Part shown: positions 5,488 to 36,931 of the stretch, in pieces
How the letters are laid out: each line of letters begins with the position of its first letter
Numbering within the stretch: the first letter of the stretch is position 1
Assembly: GCA_902168115.1 (NCBI GenBank)
Contig: CABHPB010000134.1
Location: 1-36,931 of the forward strand
DNA from: an uncultured Methylopila sp.
GTDB taxonomy: Bacteria; Pseudomonadota; Alphaproteobacteria; Rhizobiales; Methylopilaceae
Reading direction: 5' to 3'
Length of the DNA: 36,931 nucleotides
Program-made: the position numbers and the translations under genes
Notes under the pieces: generated by a model
Databases searched by the model: none
Seen by the model: only the letters and a program-made list of their open reading frames with translations
Told to the model about the DNA's origin: nothing

Positions 5488-5545
5488 TCGCTTCTGGGAC
5501 TGACGGGACGCGCGCCGAGGCGCGGCGTTCGACCGACGTTCGGGC

Positions 5546-13534: not shown

Positions 13535-14824
13535 ATGTCCCACGCAGACGCTCAAGCCGACGCCGCCGGCGGCACGAAGCCCTTCGCAGGTTTCGAATGG
13601 CTGATCGCGGGCCGCTACCTGCGCGCACGCCGCAAGGAGGGCTTCATCTCCGTCATCGCCGGCTTCTCCTTCCTCGGCATCATGCTGGGGGTGGCGACGC
13701 TGATCATCGTGATGGCGGTGATGAACGGCTTTCGGACCGAGCTGCTGAACAAGATCCTCGGCATCAACGGCCATGTCGTCGTGCAGCCGCTGGACGGCCC
13801 GCTGACCGACTACGAACAGGTCGCCGACCGGCTCTCGAAGGTGTCGGGCGTCAAATTCGCGATCCCGCTGGTCGAGGGTCAGGCGCTCGCCTCCTCGCCG
13901 GCCGCCTCGAACGGCGTGCTGGTGCGGGGCCTGAGGGCGCAGGACCTCGGCAAGCTGCAGCTGGTCGCCAAGACCATCAAGGAAGGCACGCTCGAAGGCT
14001 TCGACGAGGCCGGCGGCATCCTGATCGGACGGCGCCTCGCCGACCAGCTCGGCGTGCGCGCCGGCGACACGATCTCGCTGGTGACCCCGCGCGGCGCCGT
14101 GACCCCGATGGGCGTCACGCCGCGCATCAAGGGCTATCAGGTGCAGGCGATCTTCGAGATCGGCATGTCCGAATACGACGCCGCCTTCGCCTTCCTGCCC
14201 TTCGCGGAGGCGCAGGCCTATTTCAACCGCGAGAACGACGCCTCCTCGATCGAGGTCTATCTCGACCATCCAGATCGGGTGGACGAGTTGAAGCCGGCGC
14301 TGGAAAAGGCGGCCGGACGCGAGACCTGGATGGTCGACTGGCGGGCGCGCAACAAGACCTTCTTCTCCGCGCTCGAGGTGGAGCGGAACGTGATGTTCCT
14401 GATCCTGACCCTGATCGTGCTGGTGGCCGCGCTGAACATCATCTCCGGCCTCATCATGCTGGTGAAGGACAAGGGCCGCGACATCGCGATCCTGAGAACC
14501 ATGGGCGCGACCAGCGGCTCGGTGATGCGCATCTTCCTCATCACCGGCGCCTCGATCGGCGTGGTCGGCACGCTCGCGGGCTTCGCGCTCGGCATGATCG
14601 TGTGCTGGAACGTCGAGTCGATCCGCGCCTTCCTCGCCTATCTCACCGGCACCGAGCTGTTCTCGCCCGAAATCTATTTCCTGAGCCGCCTGCCGGCCGA
14701 ACCGAACCTGCGGGAGACGGCCTCGGTCGTGCTGATGGCGCTGGTGCTGTCGGTGGTCGCCACGCTCTATCCGTCGTGGCGCGCGGCCCGGCTCGATCCG
14801 GTCGAGGCGCTGAGATACGAATGA
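13535..14824 (+). CDS. lolC: Lipoprotein-releasing ABC transporter permease (LolC/LolE family)
   Basis: Inner-membrane subunit of the Lol transporter that extracts outer-membrane lipoproteins and hands them to LolA. The 429-aa protein has a cytoplasmic N-terminus ([20 protein letters not shown], family signature), a first membrane helix (about 43-68), a large periplasmic domain (about 70-280), and three C-terminal FtsX-type helices (about 285-415). Only one permease gene is present, so the complex is presumably a homodimer of this subunit with LolD, as in other alphaproteobacteria. Its stop overlaps the lolD start (ATGA). Confidence 0.93.
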
Positions 14825-15543
14825 CCGACGTGGCCGATTTCGACCAGGACGCGCAGAACGACGCCGAGGCGCCGCTGCTCGTGCTCGACCGCGTCGAGCG
14901 CCGCTACCGCCAGGGCGAGAGCACGCTCGATGTGCTGGCCGGCGCCTCCGCCACGCTTCACGCCGGCGAGGTCGTCGCGCTGATCGCGCCGTCGGGCGCC
15001 GGCAAGTCGACCCTGCTCCACGTCGCCGGCCTGCTGGAGCGACCGGACGGCGGCGAGGTGTTTCTCGACGGCGAGCCGACCGTCGGACTCTCGGACGACG
15101 CCCGCACGGCGCTGCGCCGCAACCATGTCGGTTTCGTCTATCAGTTCCACCACCTGCTCCCCGAGTTCTCGGCGCTGGAAAACGTCGTGGTGCCGCAGCT
15201 CATCCGCGGGCTCTCGCGCAAGGAGGCGAGCGAGCGGGCAGGGGAGCTGCTGTCCTATCTCGGCCTCGGCGCCCGGCTCGGGCATCGCCCGGCGGAGCTT
15301 TCCGGCGGCGAGCAGCAGCGCGTCGCCATCGCCCGCGCGGTCGCCAACGCCCCGCGGCTGCTGCTGGCCGACGAGCCGACCGGCAACCTTGATCCGGTGA
15401 CCTCGGCCTATGTGTTCCAGACCCTGACGACGCTGGCGCGCGCTTCGGGTCTTGCGGCGATCGTCGCGACCCACAACCTCGATCTCGCCGCGACGCTCGA
15501 CCGCCGCATCACGCTGCGCGACGGCGTGCTGGTCGACGCCTGA
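14821..15543 (+). CDS. lolD: Lipoprotein-releasing ABC transporter ATP-binding protein
   Basis: The ATPase that drives lipoprotein release with LolC. The 240-aa protein has Walker A (APSGAGKST), a Q-loop in [18 protein letters not shown], the ABC signature [14 protein letters not shown], Walker B ([12 protein letters not shown]) and a switch histidine (VATHNLDLA). The N-terminal 20 residues are acidic and unconserved. It overlaps lolC by four bases and must be translated with it. The next gene, a 36-codon frame, has its own promoter, so the lol operon probably ends here. Confidence 0.95.
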
Positions 15544-15606
15544 CGCGCGTCGTTCCGAAAATTAACGATGTTCAGCCATGCGGACGCGCCGGGGCGAAAC
15601 CGGCGC

Positions 15607-15643
15607 TTGACACTTGCGATCAGGAAGGGAACAAATACCGAAC
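15607..15643 (+). promoter_or_regulatory. LexA-box promoter (GAAC-N7-GAAC) upstream of a 36-codon gene
   Basis: TTGACA at 15607-15612 is followed by a perfect alphaproteobacterial LexA box, GAACAAATACCGAAC (15629-15643), which covers the place where the -10 element should be. Binding of LexA there would block RNA polymerase, so the downstream gene should be induced by DNA damage. The box is 22 bases before the start codon. Confidence 0.75.
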
Positions 15644-15665
15644 ATAAGGGGACAGGAGGCAGGCA

Positions 15666-15776
15666 ATGGACATCGAACGCATTCGCGACTGGGCGCTCGG
15701 CATGGCGGAACTCGGGGCCGTCGCGGCCTTCATGGGCGCGGTGTTCGTGTGGGCCGACGCCGTCATGCGGGTCTGA
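15666..15776 (+). CDS. Small single-span membrane protein under a LexA box (candidate SOS peptide)
   Basis: A 36-aa frame whose start is 6 bases after a perfect AGGAGG (15654-15659). The N-terminus (MDIERIRDWALGM) is charged and amphipathic. Residues about 14-33 (AELGAVAAFMGAVFVWADAV) form one membrane helix, and the protein ends VMRV. The strong ribosome site, the consensus -35 and the LexA operator make it a real gene although it is very short. In Caulobacter a 29-aa LexA-controlled membrane protein, SidA, stops division after DNA damage; this one resembles it in size, topology and control, with no claim of sequence homology. It lies between lolD and dnaE, and dnaE might also gain transcription from the same promoter. 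Confidence 0.72.
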   Translation: MDIERIRDWALGMAELGAVAAFMGAVFVWADAVMRV

Positions 15777-15857
15777 GCAATCCTGTGGACGGGCGCCCGG
15801 GCGAAGGCGCGGGCGGGCGGTTTCGACTAGTGTCCGGGTGGGACAAGGGAGGCGCGC

Positions 15858-18800
15858 GTGGCCGAGATCGAGGGACTGAAGGCTGATCCCGGCTTCATCC
15901 ATCTCAACCTGCGCTCATCCTATTCGCTGCTGGAAGGCGCGCTGAAGGTCGCGCGCATCGCCGACCTCGCCAAGGCCGACCATGCGCCGGCCGTCGCTCT
16001 GACCGACGACAACCTGTTCGGCGCGCTGGAGTTCTCCGACAAGCTCGCGGGCGCCGGCGTGCAGCCGATCGTGGGCCTCACGCTGCGGGTCGACTTCAAG
16101 GACCGCGAGCAGCGCTCCGGCCGGCCGGTGCGCGACGAGGGACGGCCGGCGATCGTGCTGCTGTCCTCGGCCGAGGCCGGCTACCGCAACCTGATGGCGC
16201 TTTCGAGCCACGCCTTCCTGACGGGGGAGGGCGACGGCGCGCCGTTCGTGTCGCCCGAGGATCTGGAGCGATACCGCGACGGTCTTCTCGCGCTGACCGG
16301 CGGCCCGGACGGCCCGATCGACCGGGCGCTGTCGGAGGGCGCCGAGGACGTCGCGGCGGCGCGGCTGTCGCGGCTCCAGGACCTTTATGGCGACCGGCTC
16401 TATGTCGAGCTGCAGCGCCATGGCCTCGCCGGCGAGAAGGCGATCGAGGGCGCAGTCGTCGCTCTCGCCTACGACCGCGGCCTGCCGCTGGTCGCGACCA
16501 ACGGCGTGCGCTTCGCCGGGCGGGCCGACCACGAGGCGCACGACGCGCTGATCTGCCTCGCCGAAGGGCGCGTGCTCGCCGAGACCGAGCGGCGGCAGAT
16601 GTCGGCCGAGCACTACTTCAAGACCCGCGCGGAGATGGCGGCGCTGTTCGCCGATCTGCCCGAGGCGCTCGAAAGCACGATCGAGATCGCCCGCCGCTGC
16701 GCCTATCGCCCGCGCACCATCAAGCCGATCCTGCCGCGCTTCGCCGTGGGCCAGGACGAGGCGGCGGAGCTGCGCGGCCAGGCGGTGGCGGGCCTGAAGG
16801 CGCGGCTGGAGTCGCACGAGCCGGCGCCGGGGCTCTCCGTCACTGATTATGAGGCGCGGCTCGACTTCGAGCTCGGCGTCATCGAGCGCATGAAGTTCCC
16901 GGGCTACTTCCTGATCGTCTCGGACTTCATCAAGTGGGCGAAGTCCCACGACATCCCGGTCGGGCCGGGCCGCGGCTCGGGCGCCGGCTCGCTCGTCGCC
17001 TACGCGCTCACCATCACCGACCTCGACCCCTTGCGCTTCGGGCTGCTGTTCGAGCGCTTCCTCAATCCCGAACGCGTGTCGATGCCGGACTTCGACATCG
17101 ACTTCTGCCAGGACCGGCGCGAGGAGGTGATCCGCTACGTCCAGGAACGCTACGGGCAGGACCGCGTGGCGCAGATCATCACCTTCGGCACGCTGCAGGC
17201 GCGCGGCGTGATGCGCGACGTCGGGCGCGTGCTCGAAATGCCCTACGGGCAGGTCGACAAGCTCTGCAAGCTGGTGCCGCAGAACCCGGCCAACCCGGTG
17301 ACGCTGAAGCAGGCGGTCGCGGACGAGCCGAAGCTTGAGGAGGCGCGCGCCGCCGACCCGACGGTCGGACGCATGCTCGACATCGCGCTGAAGCTCGAGG
17401 GGCTCTATCGCCACGCCTCGACCCACGCCGCCGGCATCGTGATCGGCGACCGGCCGCTGCACGAGCTCGTGCCGCTCTATCGCGACCCGCGCTCCGACAT
17501 GCCGGTCACCCAGTTCAACATGAAGTGGGTCGAGCCGGCGGGGTTGGTGAAGTTCGACTTCCTCGGCCTGAAGACGCTGACGACGCTGACCACCGCCGTC
17601 CATCTGCTGAAGCGCCGCGGCGTCGAGCTCGATCTCGGAAAGATCCCGATCGACGACGAGAAGACCTACGCCATGCTGTCGCGGGGCGAGACGGTCGGCG
17701 TGTTCCAGCTGGAAAGCGCCGGCATGCGGCGGGCGCTCGCCGAGATGAAGCCGGACCGCTTCGAGGACATCATCGCCCTCGTGGCGCTCTACCGGCCGGG
17801 CCCGATGGCCAACATCCCGACCTATTGCGTGCGCAAGCACGGGCTGGAAAAGCCCGACTATCCGCATCCCAAGCTCGAGCCGATCCTCGGCGAGACGTTT
17901 GGGGTCATCATCTACCAGGAACAGGTGATGCAGACGGCGCAGTCGCTCGCGGGCTACACGCTCGGCGAGGCCGACATGCTCCGCCGCGCCATGGGCAAGA
18001 AGATCCGCGCCGAGATGGACGCCCAGCGCGAGCGCTTCGTGTCGGGCTGCGTCGAGCGCCAGATCGGCAAGGGCGACGCCTCGACCATCTTCGACCTCTT
18101 GGCGAAGTTCGCCGACTACGGCTTCAACAAGAGCCACGCGGCGGCCTATGCGCTGGTCGCCTACCAGACCGCCTATCTGAAGGCGAACCACCCGGTCGAG
18201 TTCCTCGCTGCCTCGATGACGCTCGACATGGGCTCGACCGACAAGCTGGCGGAATTCCGGCAGGAGGCGGTGCGGCTCGGCATCGAGGTCCGTCCCCCTT
18301 GCGTCAACCGCTCCGACGTCGCCTTCGACGTGCTTGAGGGCGAGATCCTCTATGCGCTCTCGGCGCTGAAGGGCGTCGGCGGCTCGGCGGTGGCGGGGCT
18401 CGTGGCGGAGCGGAAGGAGCGTCCGTTCGCCAGCCTCAACGACTTCGCGCGCCGGATCGACGTGCGCCAGTTGCCGAAGCGCGCGCTCGAAAGCCTCGTC
18501 CAGGCCGGCGCGCTCGACGCGCTCGTGCCGGACCGCGCCCGCGCGCTCGCCTCGGTCGAAAGCGTCATGGCGATGGCGGCGCGCACCAAGGGCGGGGAGG
18601 CGACCGGCCAGTCCGACTTCTTCGGCGCCTCCGACGAGCCGATCCGGCCCGCGCCGCACGAGCCCTGGACCGCAGGCGAGCGCCTCAAGAAGGAGTACGA
18701 GGCGGTCGGCTTCTTCCTCTCCGGCCATCCGCTCGACGACTATGTCGGGCTGATGGACCGGCTCCGCGTCAAGCGCTACGCCGAGTTCGCGGCGGCCGTG

Positions 18801-19286
18801 AAGCAGGGCGCGACCGCGGGCCGGCTCGCCGCGACCGTGCTGTCGCGGCAGGAGCGCAAGACCAAGACCGGCAACCGCATGGGCGTCGTGACGCTCTCGG
18901 ACCCGACCGGTCACTACGAGGCGGTCATTTTCTCCGAGGGGCTCGCGCTCTACCGCGACCTGCTGGAGCCCAACACGCCCGTCATCGTCTCGGTCTCGGC
19001 CGCGCTCGAGGGCGACGACGTCCGGGTGCGGCTCGAGACGGTGGAGCCGCTCGACAAGGCGGCGGAGCGCCACCAGAAGTCGGTGCGCGTGTTCCTTAGA
19101 TCGCCCGAGCCGTTCGAGGCGCTGTCGCGGCGGCTCGAACAGGGCGACGGCGAGGTCTCGCTCGTCATGCTGCTCGACGCCGGGGCGGAGGTCGAGATCC
19201 GGCTGCCCGGAAAATACCGGGTCTCGCCGCAGATCGCGGGCGCGCTGAAGACGGTGCCCGGCGTGGTCGACGTCGTCGCGGCCTGA
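15858..19286 (+). CDS. dnaE: DNA polymerase III subunit alpha
   Basis: Catalytic subunit of the replicative polymerase. The 1142-aa protein begins with a PHP domain (FIHLNLRSSYSLLEGALKV), followed by the palm with the catalytic aspartates in PDFDIDFCQ (Asp411, Asp413, Asp415), the fingers with RPGPM, the tandem helix-hairpin-helix region near residue 830-900, and an OB-fold domain (about 970-1060). The length and PHP sequence are those of DnaE1, the replicative copy, not the error-prone DnaE2 (ImuC). The start is GTG, 6-11 bases after GGGAGG. It stands alone, with the LexA-controlled small gene just upstream and the rpsB promoter downstream. Confidence 0.96.
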   Translation: MAEIEGLKADPGFIHLNLRSSYSLLEGALKVARIADLAKADHAPAVALTDDNLFGALEFSDKLAGAGVQPIVGLTLRVDFKDREQRSGRPVRDEGRPAIVLLSSAEAGYRNLMALSSHAFLTGEGDGAPFVSPEDLERYRDGLLALTGGPDGPIDRALSEGAEDVAAARLSRLQDLYGDRLYVELQRHGLAGEKAIEGAVVALAYDRGLPLVATNGVRFAGRADHEAHDALICLAEGRVLAETERRQMSAEHYFKTRAEMAALFADLPEALESTIEIARRCAYRPRTIKPILPRFAVGQDEAAELRGQAVAGLKARLESHEPAPGLSVTDYEARLDFELGVIERMKFPGYFLIVSDFIKWAKSHDIPVGPGRGSGAGSLVAYALTITDLDPLRFGLLFERFLNPERVSMPDFDIDFCQDRREEVIRYVQERYGQDRVAQIITFGTLQARGVMRDVGRVLEMPYGQVDKLCKLVPQNPANPVTLKQAVADEPKLEEARAADPTVGRMLDIALKLEGLYRHASTHAAGIVIGDRPLHELVPLYRDPRSDMPVTQFNMKWVEPAGLVKFDFLGLKTLTTLTTAVHLLKRRGVELDLGKIPIDDEKTYAMLSRGETVGVFQLESAGMRRALAEMKPDRFEDIIALVALYRPGPMANIPTYCVRKHGLEKPDYPHPKLEPILGETFGVIIYQEQVMQTAQSLAGYTLGEADMLRRAMGKKIRAEMDAQRERFVSGCVERQIGKGDASTIFDLLAKFADYGFNKSHAAAYALVAYQTAYLKANHPVEFLAASMTLDMGSTDKLAEFRQEAVRLGIEVRPPCVNRSDVAFDVLEGEILYALSALKGVGGSAVAGLVAERKERPFASLNDFARRIDVRQLPKRALESLVQAGALDALVPDRARALASVESVMAMAARTKGGEATGQSDFFGASDEPIRPAPHEPWTAGERLKKEYEAVGFFLSGHPLDDYVGLMDRLRVKRYAEFAAAVKQGATAGRLAATVLSRQERKTKTGNRMGVVTLSDPTGHYEAVIFSEGLALYRDLLEPNTPVIVSVSAALEGDDVRVRLETVEPLDKAAERHQKSVRVFLRSPEPFEALSRRLEQGDGEVSLVMLLDAGAEVEIRLPGKYRVSPQIAGALKTVPGVVDVVAA

Positions 19287-34547: not shown

Positions 34548-36863
34548 ATGGCGCGCGGTCCAGAGCGTGCGAGGCCGAGGGTCGGCGCGATCGGCGCGCC
34601 GGCGGGCGCGCGCGCGGACGGCGCATCCCCGACGCGGCTCGCCTCTTCCTCGCGCGACTGGCTGCTGGCGCGGCTCGCGGAGGAGGCCGAGGCGGGCCGG
34701 CCGGCGCTTTGGCTGCCGGTCGCCGTCGGGATCGGCGTCGCCGTCTATTTCGCAGCGGCGCGGGAGCCGGCGCTTTGGGCCGCGACCGCTGTCTTCGTCG
34801 CGACTGCCGCGCTGGTCGTCGCCCTGCGCCGGCGTTTCGTCGCGCTCGGGCTCGCTCTCGCGCTCGCCGGCGCCGCAGGCGGCTTCCTCGCCGCCAAGAC
34901 GGCGACCTTGCGCGCGGACGCGCCGCTCCTCCAGCGAACGGTGAGGGCGGAGGTCGTCGGACGCGTCCTGTCGGTCGAGCCGCGCCAGCAGGGCCGCCGG
35001 CGGGTGACGCTCGCCGTCGAACGCTTCGGATCGATGGACGACGGGGAGGGGCCGCGGAAGGTGCGTGTGACGCTCGGCGCCAGGCCGGCCTTCTCCGCCG
35101 GCGACCGAGTCTCGCTCACCGCCTGGTGGCGTCCGCCCGACGGGCCGGTGCGCCCCGGCGGCTACGACTTCGCGCGCGTCGCCTATTTCCAGGGGCTCGG
35201 CGCCAGCGCCTTCGCGCCCTCGAACGTGAAGGCGCTCGGCCGCGCGGACAGCGAAGGGTTCTGGAGCGATGCGTCGGCCGCGCTGGAGCGGCTGCGGGAA
35301 CGGCTGACGGCACGCATCTCGACCGCGATCGGCGGGCCGGAAGGAACCGTCGCCGCAGCCCTCGTCACCGGCGTTCAGGGGCCGATCCCCCAGGCGACCG
35401 AGGATGAACTCCGCGCGGCGGGCCTCAGCCACATCCTGTCGATTTCCGGGCTCCACATGGCGCTGATCGCGGGCACGCTGTTCTGGCTCGCCCGGGCTGC
35501 GTTCGCGCTGTTTCCCGCGATCGCGCTGCGCTGGCCGATCAAGGGGCTTTCCGCCGCCTTCGCGCTCGCCGGCGCGACCTTCTACCTCGCGCTCTCCGGG
35601 GCCGAGGTCGCGACCCAGCGGTCCTACGTGATGATCGCCATCGCCTTCCTCGCGATCATCTTCGGCCGGGCGGCGATCTCGGCGCGCAATCTCGCGCTTG
35701 CGGCGCTCCTCGTGCTGGTCTGGACGCCCGAGGCGATGCTCGGCCCGAGCTTCCAGATGTCGTTCGCCGCGGTGGCGGCGCTCGTCGCCTGGTTCGAGAC
35801 CCGGCGGGACCGTCCCGCCGCCCCGGCGCTGGAGACCGCCGCGGCGCGCTTCTGGCGCGGCGCGACCACCGCCTGCGTGCTCGCGGTGATGACGACGCTG
35901 ATTGCAGGGCTCGCGACCGCGCCCTTCGCCGCCTATCACTTCCACCGCGTCACGCCTTATGCGCTCGCCGGCAACGCGCTGGCGACGCCGCTCCTCAGCC
36001 TGATCGTCATGCCGAGCGTCGTCGGCGGCCTGATGTTCGCCCCGCTCGGGCTCGACGGCGTCTGGTGGGACCTGATGGGGCTCGGCCTTTCGGGCGTGCT
36101 CGCCGTAGCGAAGGCCGTCGCGTCCTGGCCCGGCTCGGAGCAAAACGTGCTGGCCTTCGGGCAGGGCGCGCTGTCGCTGTTCGCTTTCGGGATCGTGTGG
36201 CTCTGCCTCTGGCGCACGGCGCTGCGATGGGCGGCCGTTCCGGTCCTCGCGGCGGCGCTCGCGCTGGCGGCGTTTCCGGCGCGGCCGGACCTCGTGATCG
36301 ACGCCGGCGGACGCTCGCTCGCCGCGCGCGGCCCGGACGGCCGGCTGCAGCTCGTCGCCGAGAAGCCGACGAGCTTTTCGGGCCGGGTCTGGCTCGCCGC
36401 CGACGCCGCGACGCCGCCGCAGAAGGGCGCGGCGAGCGACGTGCGCTGCGACGACTACGGCTGCACCGCGCCGCTCTCGGGCGGCGGGATCGCCTCGCTG
36501 GTCAACGACGCGCGCGCCTTCGACGAGGACTGCCGGATCGCCGCGCTGATCGTCACGTCGCTGAAGGCGCCGGCGGCCTGCGCGGAGACCGCCGCGGTGA
36601 TCGACCGCGACGCGCTCGACGCGACAGGGTCGCTCGAGCTCACACGCCACGACGCCGCCTTCCGCGCCGTCCCAGCGCGCGACCCGTCCGGCGCCCGGCC
36701 CTGGGAGCGCCGCGGCTCGGGCCCCCCGCCGGAGCAAGCGCTACGGCTGGTCTTCGCGCCGAAGACGGCGTCGTTGCCGATGGCCTTCGAGCGGCCGGTC
36801 AATCCGACCGACGAGGACAGTGCGGAGCCTGCGTCTTCAGACGATGACGGCGTTGGGGATTGA
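34548..36863 (+). CDS. comEC: ComEC/Rec2 family DNA-uptake channel protein
   Basis: Inner-membrane channel for import of single-stranded DNA during natural transformation. The 771-aa protein has N-terminal helices (about 55-115), a periplasmic DUF4131 OB-like domain (about 130-240), and the competence core with [17 protein letters not shown] (from about residue 293), [14 protein letters not shown] and [19 protein letters not shown]. The C-terminal part (about 575-771) starts like the beta-lactamase-like domain ([16 protein letters not shown]) but lacks HxHxDH, as usual in alphaproteobacterial ComEC. The stop is 16 bases before adapter sequence, and the acidic tail looks like a natural end, so the gene is probably complete. 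lexA normally lies beyond it. Confidence 0.92.
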
Positions 36864-36879
36864 AGCGCGCTCCCTCCCC

Positions 36880-36931
36880 CTGTCTCTTATACACATCTGA
36901 CGCTGCCGACGATCTACTCTGTGTAGATCTC
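36880..36931. other. Illumina Nextera adapter read-through (artifact)
   Basis: CTGTCTCTTATACACATCT (36880-36898) is the Tn5 mosaic end used in Nextera libraries. It is followed by GACGCTGCCGACGA (36899-36912), the read-1 adapter complement, an eight-base index TCTACTCT (36913-36920), and GTGTAGATCTC (36921-36931), the start of the P5 complement. These 52 bases are not genomic; the real sequence ends at about 36879. Confidence 0.97.

Follow-up and report, generated by a model that had tools for sequence, protein, structure and literature searches.

We found that a 36-codon gene lying directly upstream of dnaE in an uncultured Methylopila sp. is probably a diverged orthologue of sidA, repressed by LexA, whose product would, upon DNA damage, hold FtsW, FtsI and FtsN of the divisome in an inactive state. 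The window, that is the whole stretch of DNA that we analysed, has a length of 36,931 nucleotides. This kind of system is already known: SidA of Caulobacter is described as a 29-aa SOS-induced inner-membrane peptide with FtsW and FtsN as interaction partners, and it is believed to keep FtsW, FtsI and FtsN inactive (PMC4211646). Loss of lexA in Caulobacter is reported to lead to filamentation via sidA (PMC12700426).

The locus and the peptide frame

The gene (15666..15776, forward strand) encodes the 36-aa peptide MDIERIRDWALGMAELGAVAAFMGAVFVWADAVMRV, which contains a single hydrophobic stretch with a maximal 17-residue hydropathy mean of 1.9. The ORF sits between lolD, ending at 15543, and dnaE, starting with GTG at 15858. 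All neighbouring genes are on the forward strand. A lolC/lolE-like gene for a lipoprotein-release permease (13535..14824, ORF of 429 aa, named by eye) is followed by lolD (14821..15543). The latter encodes an ABC ATPase with the Pfam domain ABC_tran, for which TIGR02211 (LolD) was the best NCBIfam match, at 249 bits and thus under the curated cut-off of 307.75. On the other side lies dnaE (15858..19286), encoding the replicative DNA polymerase III alpha subunit (TIGR00594, 1184 bits). Among the named loci compared, the nearest relatives of this DnaE came from two Rhodobiaceae, an Anderseniella and a bacterium without classification, which is consistent with the presumed order, Hyphomicrobiales, though no proof of it. 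The 36-codon ORF, its single helix and the Shine-Dalgarno AGGAGG (15654..15659, forward strand), six bases before the ATG at 15666, had been described in an earlier note on this DNA and can be read directly from the sequence. No Pfam or NCBIfam family matched the window peptide above its cut-off.

The earlier note had proposed to check conservation and ka/ks of the frame in relatives. Homologues were detected in all 13 searched genomes of the genus, each beside dnaE (single-sequence search, E up to 0.63). The pooled pN/pS was 0.177 for 24 within-clade pairs, two of them having no synonymous difference and L001, L014 and L113 each entering two pairs; dN/dS between the window peptide and its closest relative was 0.17. 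Judged by these ratios, the peptide frame is under purifying selection. Near relatives share the core E-L-x-S/A-V-x-x-F ... W-A-D. Homologues are mostly 28-40 aa long, and some in other orders reach 47 aa.

When the order was searched at E<=0.5 with a profile built from 19 peptides, 168 of 297 genomes gave a match. Since this count includes chance hits, we checked the adjacency of dnaE. DnaE adjoined the match in 19 of the 28 loci of the single-sequence search (E<=1), in 25/25 further loci of the profile search and in 20/20 regions hand-picked lower in the profile list, which gives 64 of the 73 loci fetched by peptide searches. Taking one locus per genome left 51 genomes from 13 families (L029-L041 are second copies of counted genomes, and the search with dnaE was the source of L054 and L055). 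The other nine single-sequence matches had no DnaE beside them and were dropped as unrelated helices in long ORFs. In family f44, several genomes of one genus had 2-4 short-ORF matches, one of them with an internal stop; both f44 loci that were fetched (L066, L067) are beside dnaE.

The operator and LexA in the genome

The earlier note had also pointed to a perfect GAAC-N7-GAAC at 15629..15643 (forward strand), and we confirmed this from the sequence (GAACAAATACCGAAC). LexA binding to it is predicted. The pattern GAACN7GAAC occurred twice in the window, with a mean of 1.14 in shuffled sequences and at least two sites in 32 of 100 shuffles. The count is thus at chance level, so the box in the window taken alone proves nothing. 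Genome-wide there were 74 sites, compared with 47 for the pattern read backwards. The second site of the window (5527..5541, reverse strand) lies between a chemoreceptor-like and a prolyl-tRNA-synthetase-like gene; no gene with a matching start was seen at it, and it is probably due to chance.

Conservation was informative. A perfect box was located at most 120 nt upstream of the peptide start in 43 of the 51 order genomes (11 families), while shuffled upstream regions gave a mean of 0.3 genomes with such a box and a maximum of 2 (200 dinucleotide shuffles, 48 of the 51 genomes). Because it precedes homologous peptides in 43/51 genomes, we regard the box as real. The absence of frame or operator from relatives, which the earlier note had named as part of the grounds for giving up its claim, is not what we observed. 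A box with one mismatch was present in 6 further genomes, and no good box was seen near the start in the remaining two, both of family f44 (L066, L067), one of which has a perfect box farther upstream. These 8 of 51 members lacking a perfect box count against the main reading. One of the 43 (L018) was counted for another GAACN7GAAC, which lies 1 nt from the start; the box that aligns with the others has one mismatch in this locus. At L056, L067 and L071 DnaE adjoins according to tblastn, but a perfect box is missing from the 120 nt before the start at each of these loci. When 19 loci were aligned on DNA, they had the box (or its one-mismatch form), the start codon and the peptide core in common.

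The promoter was less clear. TTGACA, the presumed -35 element, is found at 15607..15612 (forward strand), and the operator lies where the -10 element would be, as the earlier note had proposed. That position, 17 nt after TTGACA, reads AACAAA, which agrees with the consensus in 3/6 bases, and a sigma-70 scan with its built-in thresholds reported no promoter in 15480-15920; an overlap of the operator with the -10 region is therefore plausible but weak. The distance from the end of TTGAC to the perfect box was 13-18 nt in 14 of 43 loci (13 from the family of the window), 2-5 nt in 18 and 36 nt in 1, and no TTGAC was seen in 10. Since this spacing varies, promoter layout differs between families.

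Other box arrangements were also observed. Seven f35 loci (L045, L048-L053) carry an inverted second box, GTTCN7GTTC, starting 18 nt after the first, which suggests a double operator. Caulobacter, some Brevundimonas and L071 of the order have degenerate boxes in tandem, with GAAT or CAAC as the second half-site, and the gene is plainly present (L197, L209, L182, L183, L071). According to a 2022 review, the operator is the direct repeat GTTCN7GTTC, which related bacteria have as well (PMC9578287).

We further examined 19 hand-picked boxes out of the 74 in the genome and submitted five ORFs to a family search. Boxes preceded an imuA-like gene (36.2 bits, below the cut-off of 150), ruvC (103.2 bits, cut-off 100.65) and a partial yifB/comM-like ORF (143.8 bits, cut-off 362); of the other two ORFs, one was BioC-like (L264) and one gave no match (L265). 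imuA, ruvC and yifB/comM are SOS genes. The first two are named among the SOS genes of Caulobacter (PMC12700426). The genome has two recA copies of full length (L275, L276), in an assembly with a stated contamination of 3.73%, and a box also precedes one of them. Together with the conservation of the operator, the boxes before these genes back the predicted LexA control of the peptide gene.

No lexA was detected above the cut-off in the draft assembly of the window, and this counts against the main reading. The LexA DNA-binding domain was above the cut-off in 12/12 further members of the genus, although in G008 it is split into two pieces, one of which contains a stop. Five of these genomes (G001, G002, G003, G006, G012) have lexA 21-22 kb downstream of the peptide gene, five have it on a different contig, and in G007 and G008 hundreds of kb separate the two genes. 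The window is a whole contig, and its end (36863..36931) is reached 21.2 kb past the peptide gene, just beyond a comEC-like gene. Given the 21-22 kb spacing in relatives, lexA may have been lost past the contig end.

Relation to SidA

The earlier note had compared the peptide with SidA in size, topology and control and had claimed no sequence homology. We are able to go further, since the Caulobacter gene in the corresponding place before dnaE is sidA itself and the profiles of the two families are related; homology to SidA can therefore be claimed.

A 29-aa ORF before dnaE in Caulobacter zeae matched the SidA model NF033228 with 72.5 bits (cut-off 35), and a Phenylobacterium peptide reached 69.3 bits. 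These were the only two scanned peptides above the cut-off; Brevundimonas (20.5 bits) and Asticcacaulis (18.3 bits) fell below it. In C. zeae (L209) the order is lolC/E-like gene, lolD, a nucleoside hydrolase gene on the reverse strand (PF01156), sidA and dnaE. This order agrees with the published tags for sidA (CCNA_02004, PMC10769358), the nucleoside hydrolase (CCNA_02005, PMC3667746) and dnaE (CC1926, PMC1839093), C. crescentus itself being absent from the loci compared. The window gene likewise lies directly upstream of dnaE within a lolC/E-lolD-dnaE segment, with a LexA-type operator in front at which binding is predicted.

The window peptide gave no match to NF033228 at E<=10, and so falls short of the 35 bits of this equivalog model, and 19 members from the order gave none at E<=1. 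Homology thus rests on profiles and position, the SidA models being without a match, which counts against the main reading. Using hhalign, we compared the order family (37 peptides) with the Caulobacteraceae family (25 peptides) and obtained a score of 27.1 (probability 91). A third set of 17 peptides from other groups, picked for their place before dnaE, bridged both at 34.0 and 25.1. In none of the three comparisons did any of 150 column shuffles reach the observed score (maxima 15.5, 17.0 and 13.6). As controls, 66 hydrophobic FtsW windows (six sequences each) were compared with the order family and gave a maximum of 14.45, and the reversed SidA profile scored 7.3. Measured against the shuffles and the FtsW controls, the two families are homologous at the profile level.

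The window peptide resembles SidA in being a tiny single-helix membrane peptide, in its GAACN7GAAC-type operator, in its place directly 5' of dnaE with lolD nearby, and in the related profile with an S/A-V-A-x-F core. It differs in length (36 aa vs 29 aa) and in having no match to the curated model. The nucleoside hydrolase gene found between lolD and sidA in C. zeae is missing from the window, and the window has one perfect box, whereas C. zeae and Caulobacter sp. D5 have two degenerate ones.

Outside the order, profile searching gave mostly noise. Four weak matches, in f51 and f47, gained weight only from their place directly before dnaE. DnaE was found in 281/290 genomes of the class. Among 60 upstream regions of dnaE, hand-picked among the matches listed, a recognisable peptide was present in 18, a count that is partly circular, like those for the named genomes below, as many peptides were in the HMM alignments (exceptions include L111 and L240); the 42 regions without it count against the main reading. 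Family f90 has the peptide MARWVREMLSLASCGGFVWMAWQAALLAY, of 29 aa, behind two boxes. The CtrA of f90 is 88-94% identical to Caulobacter CtrA, compared with at most 87% elsewhere (approximate values). Comparison of f90 DnaE with named genomes gave 80 loci. We detected the peptide in 57 of the 58 closest (DnaE identity 64-90%, two being contigs of one MAG), mostly titled Brevundimonas, Caulobacter, Phenylobacterium, Asticcacaulis or Caulobacterales. Of the 22 remaining loci 5 had it, namely two Maricaulis, an Oceanicaulis, a Parvibaculum and a Rhodobiaceae MAG.

Proposed action, alternatives and meaning

Its homology to SidA, its position and its operator make it most likely that the window gene acts as SidA does. 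The gene would be a diverged sidA orthologue in its ancestral place before dnaE, and LexA bound at 15629-15643 would block the promoter. DNA damage would lead to a RecA filament and self-cleavage of LexA, and the promoter would become free. The 36-aa peptide would then insert into the inner membrane with a single helix, the charged N-terminus probably facing the cytoplasm, and contact the FtsW/FtsN part of the divisome. FtsW, FtsI and FtsN would be held inactive and septation would wait for repair, with possible read-through into dnaE. In this scheme the binding of LexA, the orientation of the peptide in the membrane, the arrest of division and the target are inferred. Regarding the target, mutations of Caulobacter FtsW that suppress SidA are reported at A31, F145 and 246 (PMC4211646). 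The FtsW of this genome has the same residues at A31 and F145 and, as a point against, Ser instead of Ala at 246. The agreement at A31 and F145 speaks weakly for a SidA-like target, because FtsW is conserved anyway.

A LexA-controlled membrane peptide might also do another job, such as DinQ-like membrane toxicity, or act on a target other than FtsW. The sequence is far diverged from SidA, and E. coli DinQ is described as a SOS-regulated toxic single-helix peptide (PMC3567139); with SidA's locus and a related profile on the other side, we consider this explanation rather improbable.

The operator might instead serve dnaE, so that LexA would tune the replicative polymerase and the ORF would be a leader peptide or the first cistron of a SOS-induced dnaE operon. 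The gap to dnaE is 81 nt, a terminator scan found none in 15480-15920, and at loci with a gene other than lolD upstream the peptide is still found with dnaE (L028, L045, L051, judged by eye). The RNA of the gap upstream of dnaE folded no better than shuffles. The conserved amino-acid sequence with a membrane helix is unlike a typical regulatory leader, and the Caulobacter gene at the same place is a proven division inhibitor (PMC4211646), so that we give this explanation a slightly smaller chance still. Because of the short gap and the lack of a detected terminator, co-transcription of the peptide gene with dnaE is possible, and damage might therefore raise DnaE too.

A chance ORF behind a chance box, for which only the chance-level frequency of the box in the window would speak, is refuted by conservation (perfect box in 43/51 genomes, pN/pS of 0.18, homologues in 13/13 genomes of the genus) and is extremely improbable.

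The diverged sidA orthologue that we favour can be set beside other inhibitors. YneA and SosA are larger proteins with extracellular parts. These proteins, of Bacillus and Staphylococcus respectively, are described as SOS-induced division inhibitors, and it is this activity that is proposed for the window peptide; for YneA, an interaction with FtsW is reported (PMC13396833). DidA of Caulobacter is a damage-induced single-helix divisome inhibitor (PMC4211646), and it differs from the window peptide in having 71 aa, in being SOS-independent, in interacting with FtsN and in lying at another locus. Our literature search, which was partial and leaves novelty uncertain, found no account of a sidA gene in front of dnaE beyond Caulobacterales and no SOS division inhibitor for the order of the window. 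The 2022 review mentions SidA for C. crescentus (PMC9578287).

On a broader and tentative view, to which we give somewhat less than even chances, SidA would be no speciality of Caulobacter but one branch of an ancient checkpoint of alphaproteobacteria, in which a LexA-controlled one-helix peptide is encoded before the replicative polymerase gene, damage stops septation and read-through may raise DnaE; the SOS division inhibitor of the order would be this peptide. If this is true, a large bacterial order would gain a candidate gene for its SOS division checkpoint, at a predictable place before dnaE. The wider family, with dozens of divergent members, would mark the residues that are likely to touch the divisome, and such members would make the FtsW/FtsN mechanism testable across species.
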